This document shows positions 2,348-18,900 of a stretch of 39,221 bases of DNA, piece after piece. Position 1 is the stretch's first letter. Every line of letters starts with the position of its first letter. The DNA comes from Rubrivivax sp. GTDB lineage: Bacteria; Pseudomonadota; Gammaproteobacteria; Burkholderiales; Burkholderiaceae_C. The notes beneath the pieces are model-generated. The model saw only the letters and a program-made list of their open reading frames with translations. It was not told where the DNA came from and searched no databases. The stretch covers positions 1-39,221 of the forward strand of contig JAEUPB010000009.1 of the NCBI GenBank assembly GCA_016789955.1, written 5' to 3'. The translations under genes were made by a program, and so were the position numbers.

Positions 2348-2444
2348 GCGGAGCGCGGCAGCGGCCGCGCCTGGCGCAGCCCTCGGGCGGCCGGCCGTCG
2401 CCGCGGGTGGTCGCCGCGGAACGGTGCGCTCGCTGCAGGCCCTC

Positions 2445-2476
2445 GCAACGGCGCCGCAACGGGCCTGCCGGACAGT
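2445..2476 (+). promoter_or_regulatory. SARP-like box 1: two GCAACG units 11 bp apart plus -10-like hexamer
   Basis: Bases 2445-2461 read GCAACGGCGCCGCAACG, two identical hexamers with start-to-start spacing of 11 bp. Nine bases further on is GACAGT (2471-2476), which keeps the A2 and T6 of a -10 hexamer. The 17-mer differs at one base from the element at 15705-15721, where CAAAGT sits at the same distance. Direct repeats one helical turn apart, immediately upstream of -10, are the known binding layout of SARP activators. Assignment to the regulator at 15964 is inference. Confidence 0.45.
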
Positions 2477-2534: not shown

Positions 2535-2627
2535 ATGAGAACCCCCCTGCCCGCACTGCCGCCCAGTGCCTCGGCCCATGCGGCTGCTGCCGCGCGCGGA
2601 ACCACAACCGGCGAGGTGGCGACATGA
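2535..2627 (+). CDS. Possible small leader ORF (30 aa)
   Basis: A short frame beginning at ATG 2535, preceded by a GGAG at about 2525, encodes MRTPLPALPP and then an alanine-rich tail ending GTTTGEVAT. Its TGA overlaps the ATG of the next gene as ATGA (2624-2627), the usual sign of translational coupling. A start at 2502 would give 41 residues. It lies just downstream of the SARP-like box. Composition is what high-GC noise also produces, so the case rests only on the overlap and the ribosome site. Confidence 0.25.
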   Translation: MRTPLPALPPSASAHAAAAARGTTTGEVAT

Positions 2628-2788
2628 GCGACCTGGCCACCGAATGGGACGTCGGCGCCCCGGCGCAGGCCGGTTCCGACGAGCAGGCGCAGGCCTTCAA
2701 GGCCGCGTTCGCGGGCCGCATGGGCGGCATCGGCGGCAGCCTGCAGTTCACGGCCGCGCATGCCGAGGCCGTGAAGCACGAGCCGCTT
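2624..2788 (+). pseudogene. N-terminal stub of a short unknown gene, cut by a rearrangement
   Basis: The frame begins MSDLATEWDVGAPAQAG with a GAGG about 8 bases before the ATG, and runs through AFKAAFAGRMGGIGG and AHAEAVKHE. After about 53-55 codons the sequence changes into the antisense of a Bug receptor gene (TctC-like codons read on the other strand from about 2789). The frame stays open to 3388 only because the antisense strand happens to lack stops. The native gene therefore lost its 3' part. I do not recognise the family. Its position behind a box shared with the SARP operon makes it a candidate target of that regulator. Confidence 0.5.
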
Positions 2789-3298
2789 GCCCGACGTGGT
2801 GCCCGCGCCGAACGACGCGTAGCTCAGCTTGCCGGGCTGCGCCTTGGCCAGCGCCACCAGCTCGGCCACGCTGTTCGCGGGCAGCGACGGGTGGGCGATC
2901 AGCACCAGCGGCGAACTGCCGATCACGCCGATCGACTCGAAGCTCCTCAGCGGCTCGTACGGCAGCTTCGCCTTCAGCGCCGGGTTGATCGTGAAGGTGG
3001 TGTTCGAGCTGATCAGCAGCGTGTAGCCGTCGGGCTGCGCCTGGGCCACGGCGCCCGCGCCGATCACCGTGCCGGCCCCGGCCTTGTTGTCCACGATGAC
3101 GGTCTGCCCGAGGCGCGCCGTGAGGCCCTTGGCCATGATGCGGGCCACGGTGTCGGTGGCGCCGCCGGGCGGGTACGGCACGACGAGCGTCACGGCCTTC
3201 TCGGGGTAGCCGGCGGCGTCGGCGGTTCCTGCGGCCAGAGCGGCGGCCAGGCAGAGCGCCTGCAGCCACGGCCGGTGTGCGGCGAACGGGGAAGTCAT
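2789..3298 (-). pseudogene. 5' half of a Bug/TctC-family tripartite tricarboxylate receptor
   Basis: Starting at ATG 3298, with GAGGAG seven bases upstream, the frame encodes a signal peptide (ALCLAAALAAGTADAA) and the first lobe of a Bug receptor: YPEKAVTLVVPYPPGG, TDTVARIMA, GQTVIVDNKAGAG and PDGYTLL. These periplasmic proteins bind small carboxylates or similar ligands. About 170 residues are recognisable, up to SYASFGAGTTSG; the other 150 or so are missing, replaced by the antisense of the stub gene. Its ATG overlaps the TGA of the TetR gene as ATGA, so the two formed one operon. The protein cannot fold a second lobe and is presumably dead. Confidence 0.7.
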
Positions 3299-14426: not shown

Positions 14427-15680
14427 GTGCACACCGAGATCACCGCGCTCAGCAACGACGGCCTGCGCCTCGCACAGTCCAGCGACCGGGACGGTGCCGA
14501 GCGGCAGCTGCGGCAGGCGCTCGCGCTGGCCGAGCGGCACCTCGGCGCCGACGATCCGATGACGGGCGTGTGCCTGAGCAACCTCGGCGACTTCCTCGGC
14601 CAGGACGGGCGCACGGAGGAAGCCGAATCGCTGATGCGTCGCGCGGTGGCCGCGGAGGAGCGGCTGCACGGCCCGGAGGCCCTGGAGACGGCCTACGCGC
14701 TGAACAACCTCGCGCTCGTGCTGCGGCGCGCCGGCCGGCTGGCCGAGGCCGAGGCGCTGTACCGCCGCGTGCTGCCGATCTTCGAGCGCGGCCCCGGCCC
14801 CGAGAGCCCCGAAGCCGCGAGCGTGATGAACAACCTCGCGCAGGTCTGCCAGCACAGCGGGCGGTCCGAGCATGCCGAGCCGCTGATGCGCCGCGTGATC
14901 GAGGTCTTCGAGCGCCAGCGCGGCCCGCGCCATCCCGATGTGGCGGTGGCCCTGAACAACCTGGCCCGGCTGCTGGAGGACAGCGGCCGCGCCCGCGAGG
15001 CCGAGCCGCTGTCGCGCCGCCACCTGCGCATCTTCCAGGAGCACGAGAACGAGACCGGCCGGCCGCACCGGCACAAGCGCGCAGCCATCGCCGCCTATGG
15101 CGACCTGCTGCTGGCCCTGGGGCTGGACCGGCGCCGCGCGCAGCAGCGCATCGACGACCTGCTGCTCGGCCGCGAGGTGCACGAGCTGCCCGACCCCGCC
15201 TCGCCGGCCGCAACGGCCCCCGACGATGCCGGCCCCGCGGAGACCCCCGACTTCGATCGTCTCTCCGCCTTTGCCGACGATGCCGGCGCGTCGATCGACG
15301 ACCAGAACGCCCTCTTCCGCGCGGCCTTCCGGCTGAACGAGTGGTACTTCGTCGCCCGCGGCGAACTGCCCGACGTGCGACCCTACGTCGCGAGCAACCC
15401 GACCATCGCCGGCGGCGCGCCGATGGTGAAGGCCTTCACCGACACGCGGCGGCTGCACGCCTACGCCCGCGAGAACGCGCTCACCGGCCCCGAGGGCGAC
15501 GTGCAGATCCTGGCGCTGCCGGTGCACACGATCCTCTTCACCACCGCCGACCTCGAGACCCAGGGCGTGACGCACATCCACTTCAACGGCGACGCAGCGA
15601 GCCACGGCTTCTACATCCCGCTGGCGCAGCTGCCGCTGGTGCAGCGCCACCTGAAGCGACTGGGGCTGGTGCCGGGCTGA
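14427..15680 (+). CDS. Tetratricopeptide-repeat protein with unknown C-terminal domain
   Basis: 417 residues from a GTG at 14427. Residues about 5-210 hold four to five 42-residue repeats of the kinesin-light-chain type, each with a core like NNLALVLRRAGRLAEAEALYRRVL and a linker ending GPESPEAA or GPRHPDVA. A Pro/Ala/Asp-rich linker (about 245-275) leads to a domain of about 130 residues (LNEWYFVARGELPDVRPY, MVKAFTDTRRLHAYA, GVTHIHFNGD, GFYIPLAQL) that resembles SseB-like modules in layout only. Likely cytoplasmic and a protein-protein interaction scaffold. It is followed 67 bases later by the SARP operon, so a functional link to that regulator is possible. Confidence 0.85.
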   Translation: MHTEITALSNDGLRLAQSSDRDGAERQLRQALALAERHLGADDPMTGVCLSNLGDFLGQDGRTEEAESLMRRAVAAEERLHGPEALETAYALNNLALVLRRAGRLAEAEALYRRVLPIFERGPGPESPEAASVMNNLAQVCQHSGRSEHAEPLMRRVIEVFERQRGPRHPDVAVALNNLARLLEDSGRAREAEPLSRRHLRIFQEHENETGRPHRHKRAAIAAYGDLLLALGLDRRRAQQRIDDLLLGREVHELPDPASPAATAPDDAGPAETPDFDRLSAFADDAGASIDDQNALFRAAFRLNEWYFVARGELPDVRPYVASNPTIAGGAPMVKAFTDTRRLHAYARENALTGPEGDVQILALPVHTILFTTADLETQGVTHIHFNGDAASHGFYIPLAQLPLVQRHLKRLGLVPG

Positions 15681-15703: not shown

Positions 15704-15736
15704 TGCAACGGCGCTGCAACGTCTCGGCGGCAAAGT
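15704..15736 (+). promoter_or_regulatory. SARP-like box 2 in front of the SARP operon
   Basis: TGCAACG-GCGC-TGCAACG (15704-15721) is a pair of identical heptamers with a 4-bp spacer, 11 bp start to start. CAAAGT (15731-15736) follows after nine bases and would place transcription start near 15743, only about four bases before the ATG at 15747. The 17-base core matches 16 of 17 bases at 2445-2461. This layout suggests autoregulation by the regulator encoded just downstream. Confidence 0.5.
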
Positions 15737-15746
15737 GCGGGCCACC

Positions 15747-15941
15747 ATGGACCCCGCTGCCCCGCCCTCCCCGGCCACGCGCCAGGTGCTGCTGTCGGTG
15801 TGGTGCCCGCGCGTCGGCGAGTTCGCGGCGCGCGTGGTGCTGGCCGACGGCACGCTGCGCGACTTCGACAGCCCGTTCGAGCTGATGCGCTTCCTCACCG
15901 CGCCGCCGCTGCCGCCCCCCGGGCGTGGCGGCCTGCGGTGA
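15747..15941 (+). CDS. Small hypothetical protein (64 aa) ahead of the SARP gene
   Basis: 64 residues from ATG 15747. After a Pro/Ala-rich start the core is RQVLLSVWCPRVGEFAARVVLADGTLRDFDSPFELMRFL, with a mid-chain that looks like a compact three-strand-plus-helix unit. Similar short proteins ending in a 'dF.SPfELmrFL' motif are common in Burkholderiales as uncharacterised ORFs. It lies directly behind the SARP-like box, with too little room for a normal 5' leader, and 22 bases before the SARP ATG. The two genes therefore almost certainly share a transcript. Function unknown. Confidence 0.6.
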   Translation: MDPAAPPSPATRQVLLSVWCPRVGEFAARVVLADGTLRDFDSPFELMRFLTAPPLPPPGRGGLR

Positions 15942-15963: not shown

Positions 15964-18900
15964 ATGAGTGCCCCCGGCCCGGCGCGCATGGACCTGCAGT
16001 GGCTCGGCCCGCCGCGGCTGCTGCTGGATGGCCAACCGGTGGCGCTGCCGACGCGCAAGGCCTGCGCGCTGCTGTTGCTGCTGGCCGTCGGGGGCAGCGT
16101 TGCGCGGCCCCGGCTGTGCGCGTGGTTGTGGCCCGACCTGGACGAATCCAGCGCGCGCCGCAACCTCCGCCGCGAGCTGGCACGCCTGCGCGAGGTGGGT
16201 GCGGGAGCGGCCGTACGAGCCGACGGCGACCGGCTCCTGCCCGGCCCTGACCTGACCCACGATCTCGCCCGGGCCGAGGCCCTGGTGTGCGCCGGCGAAC
16301 CCGAGGCAGCGCTGGCGCTGTGGCGCGGCGACGCCGCCGAGGGGTTGGTGGCCGACGGCGGCGACGACATGGGCCTCGCCGCGTGGCTGGCCGAACAGCG
16401 ACAGCACGCGCGGGCCCTGCACCGGCGCGCACGGGAGACCAGCGCAGAAGCGGCCGAAGCGCGCGGCGATCTGGCCACCGCGCTGGCGAGCGTCCAGGCA
16501 CTGCTGGCCGACGATGCGCTGCAGGAGCGCCAGCACCGGGCCGCGATGCGGCTGCTCGCGGCGTCCGGCGACCGCGCCGGGGCGCTGCGGCAGTTCGAGG
16601 CGTGCCGCGCGCTGCTGGCGGCGGAGCTGGGGCTGGAGCCGGCACCCGAGACGGCGGCGCTGGCGCAGTCGCTGCGGGCGCCGGCGCCGACACGGCCCAC
16701 GGCGTCGGTGGCGGAACTGCCGCCGGCACACCCGCCGTCCCCGGAACCGGCCCTTTCCGCCGTGCGCCTGCCGCAGCACCTGCCCTTCGTGGGCCGCGTG
16801 GACGAGGTGGCGCGGATGCAGAAGGCCTGGTCGCGCCGCCAGCCGGTGATCCTGGTGGGCGAGTCCGGCGTGGGCAAGACCCGGCTGGCCGCCGACTTCG
16901 CGGCCACGCAGGGGCCGTACGCCGTGCTGCGGGCGCAGCGCGGCGACGGCCAGATGCCGCTGGCGAGCTACGCCCGTGCGCTGCGCGAGCTGGCGGGCGA
17001 TCCGGCCGACCTGTCGGCGCTGGAGCCCTGGGTCGCGGCCGAGCTGGCGCGCCTGCTGCCGGAGCTGGGCCCGCCGCTGCCTCCGCTGCGCAATGCCGAG
17101 GACCGACGGCGCTTCGACGAGGCCTGCCTGCGCGCCTGGCATGCCCTGGCCGGTGCCAGCTTCGACACCGTGGTGCTCGACGACTGGCAGTGGGCGGATG
17201 CCGCGAGCCGCGCGCTGTGGGCGCGTGCCGCCGCGCGTCGGCGCAAGGAAGGCGGCGGGGCGATCGAGATCCTGACCTGGCGCGGCCACCCCGACGAGGC
17301 CGAGCTGCTGGCCAGCACGGACGCGATGGGCGCCGAGATGCTGGTGCTGGCGCCCCTGGACGACGCCGCCGTGCAGGAACTCGTGCGGCAGCTGTCCGGC
17401 TCGGCCGATCCGCTGCGCTTCGCGCAGCGGCTGCGCAGTGCCACCGGCGGTCATCCGTACTTCATCGACGAGACGCTGCGCGACCTGGCCGAGCGCGCGC
17501 TGCTGCGTGGTGACATGGCCGGCCGCTGGTGCACGCCGTTCGACGACGACGCCGCCGGGTACCAGGACCTGCCGCTGCCGCCGAGCGTGCGCGACGCCGT
17601 GCAGGCGCGCGTGCGGCGGCTGGGCGCCGCGAGCCTGCGGCTGCTGGAAGCGGCGGCGCTGGCGGCCGAACCGTTCGGCGCCGCCGGGCTGGCCCAGGCC
17701 TGCGCGCTGTCGGAGCTGGAAGCCCTCGACGCGCTGGACGGTGCGGTGCGGGCGAACCTGGTGACGGCCAGCGACGGCGGCGGCTACGCCTGGGCCCATG
17801 ACCTCGCGCGCAGCGCGCTCGCCTCGACCCTCGGCCCGACGCGCCGCCGGCTGCTGCATCACCGGCTCGCGGTGGCGGCCGAGGCACAGGGGGCTCGAGC
17901 GGAAGCGGCACGTCACTTCGAGGCCTGCGGCGAGCCTGCACGTGCCGTGCCGCACCGGCTCGCCGCGGGCGACACCGCACACGCGCTGCATGCACCGGCC
18001 GAGGCCGCGGCGCAGTGGCGGCTGGGGCTGGCCGACGGCCCCGCGCGTGCCGACGAGGCCGTGCTGCTCGCACGGCTGTGCGAGGTCGAATGGCTGCAGG
18101 GCCATGCCGACGAGGCGCGCGCGCTGCATGCGCGCCTGCGGGATCTGCTGTCACGGCCTCCCGAGGCTGCGGTCCCGCCCGACGTCCGCCTCGACGTGCA
18201 GCTGGCCGCCGTCGACTACCTCAGCAAGTGCGGCCAGCTGCCGCAGGCGCTGGCCGAGCTGGATGCCCTGGCGATGCCGCCGAGCGGCCCGGCGCGGCTG
18301 CGCTGGTGGCGCATGCGCGCCAACGTGCTGCACCAGCTCGGGCGGATCGAGGAGGCGGTTGCTCAGGGAGAGCAGGCGCTGCTGAACGCACCGCCTCACT
18401 CGCGCGAACGGGCAGAGGTGTTGTTGTCGCTCGCCACGGCGGCCCACTCCGGCGGCCGGATGGCCGATGCGGTGGCCCATGCCGATACGAGCATTGCGCT
18501 GTTCGACCGGCTCGGTGATCCCACCGGCCGCGCGCGGGCGCAGTTCTACCGCGGCATCGCGCGGATCGAGCAGGGCGACATCCCCGCCGCCGAGGCCGAC
18601 CTGCGTGGCACGGCCTCCACCGCGGCGCAGCGCGGAAACGTCTACCTGCAGCGCCTGGCGCTCTACAACCTGGCGGCCGCCCACTCCAACCATTCCCGGC
18701 CGGCCGAGGCGCTGGCGGTGGCACGTGAAGCCTGGCCGACGATGGCCGATGCGCCGCACGAAGAGATGACGCTGGTCTTCCGATCGATGTTCATCGAGTG
18801 CCACCATCAGCTCGGCGACTGGGGCCCGATGTGGGATCACCTGGTGCCGGCCGTCTCCGGGGCGATGGCCGGTTCCTCGGCGATGCTGCGCATGAGCATC

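Follow-up and report, generated by a model that had tools for sequence, protein, structure and literature searches.

Direct repeats ahead of weak -10 elements as probable operators of SARP-type activators in Rubrivivax and its relatives

What purpose do the two nearly identical pairs of short direct repeats in this locus serve, and which protein would read them? The window, i.e., the whole stretch of 39,221 nucleotides analyzed here, is the complete contig C74 of a Rubrivivax sp. genome (5.26 Mb in 116 contigs, 79.6% complete). The sequence-only reading of this DNA had picked out GCAACG-N5-GCAACG at two positions, each followed after nine bases by a hexamer with the A2 and T6 of a -10 element, and had proposed a proteobacterial SARP regulon. 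Both positions were right (Table 1), the two copies agree at 16 of 17 bases, and GACAGT and CAAAGT stand nine bases past them. The copies also share the layout of a SARP box, for which PMC10936776 places the 3' repeat about 8 bp from the -10: The direct repeats lie 11 bp apart, and the -10 follows 9 bp from GCAACG, or 8 bp from the heptamer GCAACGN, as it does at all 10 places of the genome.

Table 1. Features of the window discussed in the text.
Feature	Position	Strand	Remarks
Second SARP box, two 11-bp units	2444..2465	+	Repeat core 2445-2461 = GCAACGGCGCCGCAACG
-10-like hexamer GACAGT	2471..2476	+	9 bases past the core at 2445-2461
5' part of ORF behind the second box	2624..2785	+	Cut near 2785, probable contig misjoin
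SARP box, two 11-bp direct repeats	15704..15725	+	Units 15704-15714 and 15715-15725; core 15705-15721 = GCAACGGCGCTGCAACG
-10-like hexamer CAAAGT	15731..15736	+	9 bp past GCAACG; A2/T6 at such spacing in 10/10 genome places
64-aa ORF, small family ending GLR/GIR	15747..15941	+	Between box and SARP; no Pfam or NCBIfam match
SARP-type regulator, 1161 aa	15964..19449	+	Winged helix + BTAD, AAA_16, TPR; possible start 15988
Recognition helix	16144..16194	+	Residues 53-69 counted from 15988
Arg62 (counted from 15988)	codon 16171-16173	+	Aligned with AfsR T88 by helix alignment

Exact repeats in the genome, the genus and the order

Exact copies of the repeat are enriched in the window, where two are present versus ~0.015 expected by chance, an expectation based on how often GCAACG occurs in 216 kb of this genome (~2.0 pairs genome-wide). 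A window scan that allowed up to two mismatches showed no enrichment (7 matches versus a shuffle mean of 10.97), and a genome scan for two-mismatch copies with a -10 gave 40 matches versus 48 in mirrored orientation, i.e., noise. We therefore used exact cores and did not count inexact copies. Across the genome, GCAACG-N5-GCAACG occurs 11 times at 10 places, and NANNNT stands exactly 9 bp past the second GCAACG at all ten (CACAGT, GATGCT, TAAGGT, GAGGAT, GATCCT, GACCAT, CACAGT, GACGAT, GACAGT, and CAAAGT; binomial P ~7e-17 at a chance of 1.9% per site, derived from the base composition of the window). On contig C84, where three copies stand in a row, the outer one is the single repeat without a -10. 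This triple GCAACG at 11-bp steps (L029 7830-7841; G000:C84:129813-129840) is found where a SARP gene ends, upstream of a PEP-CTERM gene, and has space enough for three SARP domains.

Because GCAACG reads the same backwards, the same pattern with the -10 on the wrong side provides a matched control. Box and -10 occurred 10 versus 0 times in the genome itself and 45 versus 2 times in 81 genomes of the genus, while 398 other genomes of the order yielded 12 versus 11, which is background, and never more than one match in the true direction per genome. Ten further genus genomes, picked for having sites or a related SARP, contained 51 bare repeats, 30 of them with a -10 at 9 bp. Each of the ten places in the own genome lies upstream of an ORF when read on its own strand, and with a simple gene caller eight fall between genes, one overlaps a further ORF call, and one lies within the last 45 bases of a SARP ORF; the random scatter in coding DNA against which the regulon idea had been set was not seen. 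A logo from 44 sites consists of the unit Y-GCAACG-S-C-N-N twice at 11 bp, followed by NANNNT-G, in which the A and T of NANNNT were required by the search. The base after the -10 is G in 33 of the 44 sites, and 7 bases on, A is the commonest base (17/44). These 44 include the single sites of five genomes (G014, G016, G074, G086, and G091), which may be chance, and leave out one more genus site (G013:C245:33711), as its stretch was too short for the scan. At four loci (L161, L177, L179, and L184), the GCAACG repeats run into a GGCYCAAT-like end, with the -10 perhaps one base further on; the L161 repeat adjoins an Arg-type SARP with His in its helix.

SARP genes near the boxes

The SARP/AfsR-like protein of 1161 residues that the earlier reading had seen behind the box is indeed encoded there. 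Its ORF matches BTAD (5e-18) and AAA_16 (2.6e-14), with TPR_1 and TPR_12 below the Pfam cut-off. With an OmpR-type winged helix at the N terminus followed by BTAD, it belongs to the SARP family, and with the added ATPase and TPR regions (the TPR matches being below cut-off) to the large SARPs. The predicted fold of its SARP domain is that of AfsR and EmbR (PDB comparison by VIA-align 2). Three paralogues in the genome (on C74, C37, and C84) have nearly identical recognition helices, so that any of the three may act at a given site. Directly ahead of the box lies the gene of a 417-aa TPR protein (window 14427-15680), which resembles part of the FxSxx-COOH system TPR protein (3e-30) and part of AfsR (7e-10), both below cut-off.

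Close relatives of this SARP, defined by a score of at least 160 bits (a cut chosen after seeing a gap in the scores), are present in 9 of the 81 genus genomes. At least two sites were found in 8 of these 9 versus 1 of the 72 others (P 2.5e-9). The ninth genome, G085, holds only a SARP fragment on an 8-kb contig, and the one exception among the 72, G094, has SARP pieces at two contig ends, perhaps of one split gene, each adjoining a site. Sixty-six of the 72 are without a box; six have one, five of them a single box only, which may be chance or belong to another SARP. Conversely, a GCAACG box with its -10 accompanies 20 of the 22 SARPs that scored above 260 bits, within a range from 6 kb ahead of the domain start to 10 kb behind it. 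Most of these boxes lie 26-374 bp ahead (on the gene strand or divergent) or immediately follow the gene, and some are 1-2 kb ahead. The other two are L159, with no box in 15 kb and seven sites elsewhere in its genome, and L160, at a contig end. Presence of the box mostly goes with presence of the gene, both among genus genomes and at orthologous SARP genes, as the regulon proposal had implied. Outside the genus, Pelomonas sp. Root405 and Root1237, Roseateles toxinivorans, and an unclassified Burkholderiales assembly likewise have the box near their SARP genes. The link is looser in Aquabacterium terrae, where boxes lie 1.2 and 2.2 kb ahead of the SARP; in part, the -10s of the Pelomonas, Roseateles, and Aquabacterium strains are fuller (TATCGT, TATCTT, TACCGT, and TAGCCT).

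The position of the boxes qualifies the further proposal that the SARP activates its own operon. This arrangement fits the window but is not general: Among 44 exact boxes no more than 420 bp from either end of a SARP gene, only 6 lie ahead on the strand of the gene, versus 29 behind on the gene strand and 9 ahead in divergent orientation. Where a box follows a SARP gene within 420 bp, it never points back at that gene (0 versus 29). Among the 65 SARP-like ORFs considered, 28 lack an exact box in the 420 bp next to their ends, and three of these 28 have a box with a single mismatch; some of the box-less ORFs sit at contig ends, and several do not (e.g., L159). No AACG box turned up in the loci of distant SARPs from Chloroflexota, Gemmatimonadota, and others (L223, L228, L229, and L232-L234). 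In the own genome, 7 of the 10 GCAACG places have no close SARP gene next to them, and five of these are on contigs where no such gene was detected; sites therefore occur at a distance, too.

Variant boxes, the recognition helix and rival explanations

The GCAACG repeat stands as first described, but it is not the sole form; it is one of a family NNAACG-N5-NNAACG. A de novo search near distant SARPs returned TCAACG twice beside the SARP on C95, and GTAACG behind the SARP on C35 and in L214. When only the core AACG-N7-AACG with a -10 was demanded, and not equal first letters, the own genome gave 16 matches versus 1 in the control, namely, the 10 known places and 6 more, of which five have equal first two letters (TC, TC, TC, GT, and GA) and the sixth has GG/CG. 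A spacing of 10 yielded just 8 versus 3, including GGAACG beside the SARP on C34. In partly overlapping loci that add up to 1.47 Mb, 8 non-GC boxes begin with the same two letters in both halves, versus 0-3 for 11 permuted cores, where the maximum of 3 came from GCAA, which overlaps the GCAACG box. Among the matches listed from the genus-wide core-only search, many are background, and a different, unrelated repeated element of the type AACGNTNGNCNAACGGTCG appears in many genus genomes.

The letters of the box vary with one residue of the recognition helix. In the helix alignment, the variable residue (Arg62 in the window) falls on Thr88 of AfsR, which contacts a base in the cryo-EM structure (PMC10936776). 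With covariation restricted to exact boxes within 420 bp of gene ends, 37 of the 65 SARP-like ORFs qualify: Arg goes with C as the second base in 23 of 24 SARPs, Lys with A in six and with G in two, and Gln with T in 5/5. Overall, residue and base fit in 36 of 37 SARPs, compared to 29 in the best of 100,000 shuffles. The fit persisted upon single-linkage clustering, at 32/33 (80% identity), 23/24 (60%), 11/12 (50%, P 0.0002), and 7/7 (45%, P 0.005), and Gln with T appears in two separate branches of the tree, one of them nested near Arg-type SARPs. A post hoc refinement that takes in the next residue gives Arg-Glu with C (23), Lys-Val with A (6), Lys-Ala with G (2), and Gln-Glu/Arg with T (5); the single exception to the one-residue rule, L169, is Arg-Ala with halves GG/GA. 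The mapping of base contacts to AfsR is off by ~1 bp if the afsS -10 is assumed to lie at -12 to -7. The pairing of Arg with C and of Gln with T would conform to classical contacts, to the G and the A, respectively, on the opposite strand.

The rule was written down beforehand and was right in all five new cases. Boxes with GT/AT (L278) and TT/AT (L279) predicted Gln, which was present; GG/GG at two loci (L282 and L283) predicted Lys, which was present; and CT/CT at L311, 1.3 kb behind the gene, predicted Gln, again present. Four of these five places were on the pre-written list, and L311 was added afterwards from the same source listing. The prospective set comprised 40 stretches, 36 with a box place (6 of them places from the spacing-10 search in the own genome) and 4 that were extensions of earlier loci. 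Equal second bases were found at 20 of the 36 places, and a SARP model matched at 6 of these 20 versus 0 of the 16 others; the helix was readable in five of the six matches, and the remaining 14 equal-base places had no SARP-model match in their stretch. One misfit fell outside the formal test: At L254, CAAACG boxes lie 1.5 kb behind a SARP whose helix has His where Lys was expected.

We conclude that the repeats are very probably operators of SARP-type activators at AfsR-like promoters, with several specificities per genome, binding and activation being deduced from the patterns above. The proposal of a proteobacterial SARP regulon thereby gains ground on four sides: the nonrandom occurrence across the genome, the co-occurrence with close SARPs, the neighborhood, and the matched changes of helix and half-site. 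Direct repeats are also bound by other activators, HilA of Salmonella being one, and OmpR/PhoB-type response regulators likewise bind direct repeats ahead of the -10. The boxes might thus belong to such a response regulator, with SARP genes merely among its targets. The two kinds of regulator have the class of DNA-binding fold in common, and in G074, a genome with a single site, an OmpR-type response regulator stands directly behind the box (L156). Yet the half-site changes track the helix of the neighboring SARP, with the rule right in 5/5 new cases, and the box is lacking in 66 of the 72 genus genomes without a close SARP and at background in the rest of the order, which makes this explanation quite improbable.

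Inherited linkage could produce the same agreement of helix and box without any contact, if a SARP and its box-bearing neighbors moved as a block. SARPs and boxes are indeed clustered, related SARPs have both letters in common, and just seven clusters are left at 45% identity. However, the agreement survives clustering (23/24, 11/12, and 7/7), Gln with T stands in two branches, and, of the 10 own GCAACG places, 7 stand apart from any close SARP gene, 5 of them on contigs without one found; we regard descent alone as very improbable. That no dedicated activator is involved, the repeats being of a mobile or structural kind or a variant of a promoter, appears scarcely credible: The genus does have other repeated AACG elements, but the polarity and spacing relative to the -10 are fixed here (10 versus 0), the sites lie upstream of ORFs, and their number elsewhere in the order is at background level.

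Proposed promoters, their genes and related systems

At the operators of SARP-type activators proposed here, two SARP domains would sit side by side on the two 11-bp repeats, in place of a -35 element, and the pair would bring sigma region 4 and RNA polymerase to a weak -10, in the manner of AfsR at afsS. This -10 would start 9 bp after the second hexamer, or after 8 or 10 bp in the variants. According to PMC10936776, AfsR binds two 11-bp repeats centered at -29.5, keeps sigma region 4 away from the -35, and turns on a promoter whose -10 is CACTGT. Counted from the A that is commonest 7 bases past the -10, the center of the boxes described here lies ~28.5 bases upstream; compared to the -29.5 of AfsR, this geometry therefore allows the same sigma adaptation. 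In the own genome, GCAACG boxes would be read by the SARP at 15964 and probably also by its paralogues on C37 and C84, while other SARP paralogues would read their own NNAACG-N5-NNAACG boxes. The residue at the AfsR T88 position and its neighbor would set the second base (Arg-Glu C, Gln T, Lys-Val A, and Lys-Ala G). The contact geometry, and the sensing of a signal by the AAA/TPR part, are deduced as well.

To characterize the genes behind the boxes, we considered same-strand ORFs within 260 bp, which follow 37 of the 44 sites with a -10 at a median of 61 bp; the 7 sites without such a gene start, including that at window 2445, were left out. Twelve of the 37 first genes match the PEP-CTERM model TIGR02595 at E 0.01 or better and nine match the Pfam PEP-CTERM model at 0.001, while a PEP-like tail string occurs in 13/37 versus 11/306 background genes (taken from other loci, with a minimum of 100 aa). 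The own genome has a PEP-CTERM tail in only one of nine readable first genes, and the PEP-CTERM link is therefore mainly a feature of the relatives. Seven of the 37 are small ORFs ending in GLR. A profile built from these seven found more members, ending in GLR or GIR, next to SARPs of several classes and also with boxes of the TC and GT types; they usually lie beside a SARP gene and are often first behind the box. The member in the window had no match in Pfam or NCBIfam. Behind the ten boxes of the own genome, the first ORF ends in GLR twice (C74 and C37) and once in GIR (C75), the latter resembling the GLR ORFs by eye though missed by the profile. Six others encode a PEP-CTERM protein (C84), a rhomboid, an M48 protease, two coiled-coil-like products, and a 146-aa repeat protein, and the last is the truncated ORF at 2624.

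This last ORF is the short gene at 2.5-2.8 kb that had been named as a target. The box does stand ahead of it, but the ORF is incomplete: The plus-strand ORF and an opposing TctC gene, whose Pfam match covers 118 of 274 positions, break at a common point (window 2780-2795, near 2785), which is probably a contig misjoin and possibly a real rearrangement. The box at 15705 would drive the small GLR ORF and the SARP itself, from a transcript start predicted near 15743, and the other own-genome boxes would drive another GLR ORF, the PEP-CTERM protein, proteases, and coiled-coil proteins; in relatives, the box would drive mainly PEP-CTERM proteins and GLR ORFs. The start codons of several GLR ORFs lie ~6-13 bases past the -10 (window 15731-15747; L024, L154, L202, and L222), such that their messages would be leaderless or nearly so. 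We consider it likely that, in the Rubrivivax-Roseateles group, SARPs have expanded into parallel, largely separate switches, in which two helix residues (the AfsR T88 position and the next) predict each NNAACG repeat by classical chemistry and the typical targets are an unnamed small GLR/GIR protein beside the SARP and exported PEP-CTERM proteins.

Compared to AfsR with its afs box in Streptomyces coelicolor (SARP-TIC; PMC10936776), the repeat letters differ, Arg, Gln, or Lys takes the place of Thr88, the ATPase part matches AAA_16, unlike that of AfsR, and the host is a betaproteobacterium with surface and small proteins as targets rather than antibiotic regulation. EmbR of Mycobacterium tuberculosis (PDB 2fez) is alike by fold and differs by an FHA domain (PMC10936776). 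GSU1771 of Geobacter sulfurreducens is a studied SARP-family regulator outside actinomycetes, and in its deletion mutant the levels of exosortase (epsH) and PEP-motif genes change; it differs by a receiver domain and another architecture, and the passages considered from PMC10599522 mention no direct-repeat box. RpoN with PrsK-PrsR governs a PEP-CTERM protein in the related betaproteobacterium Aquincola, but through a sigma-54 -24/-12 promoter rather than a SARP box (PMC9850573). Among the matches listed from the open-licence literature (titles and starts of abstracts), there was no SARP box outside actinomycetes and no helix-to-box rule, and only two papers on Geobacter brought SARP and PEP-CTERM together.

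SARPs are known mainly from actinomycete antibiotic clusters, and a betaproteobacterial operator set would put the same promoter logic to use for other genes, including cell-surface ones. With the rule, targets of an unstudied SARP could be guessed from its helix, and the several specificities could supply distinct activator-promoter pairs for gram-negative hosts. The boxes would also offer a first handle on the small conserved GLR/GIR family and a second possible route of PEP-CTERM gene control besides sigma-54. In three genomes, exported proteins of ~650 aa are encoded behind boxes (L138 3690-5621, L151 12613-14571, and L155 5605-7608), and these probably correspond to the three that match Beta-lactamase2 and BTRD1. 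The 146-aa ORF behind a box at L023 5997-6437 contains several repeats of the GGDDGAF type.
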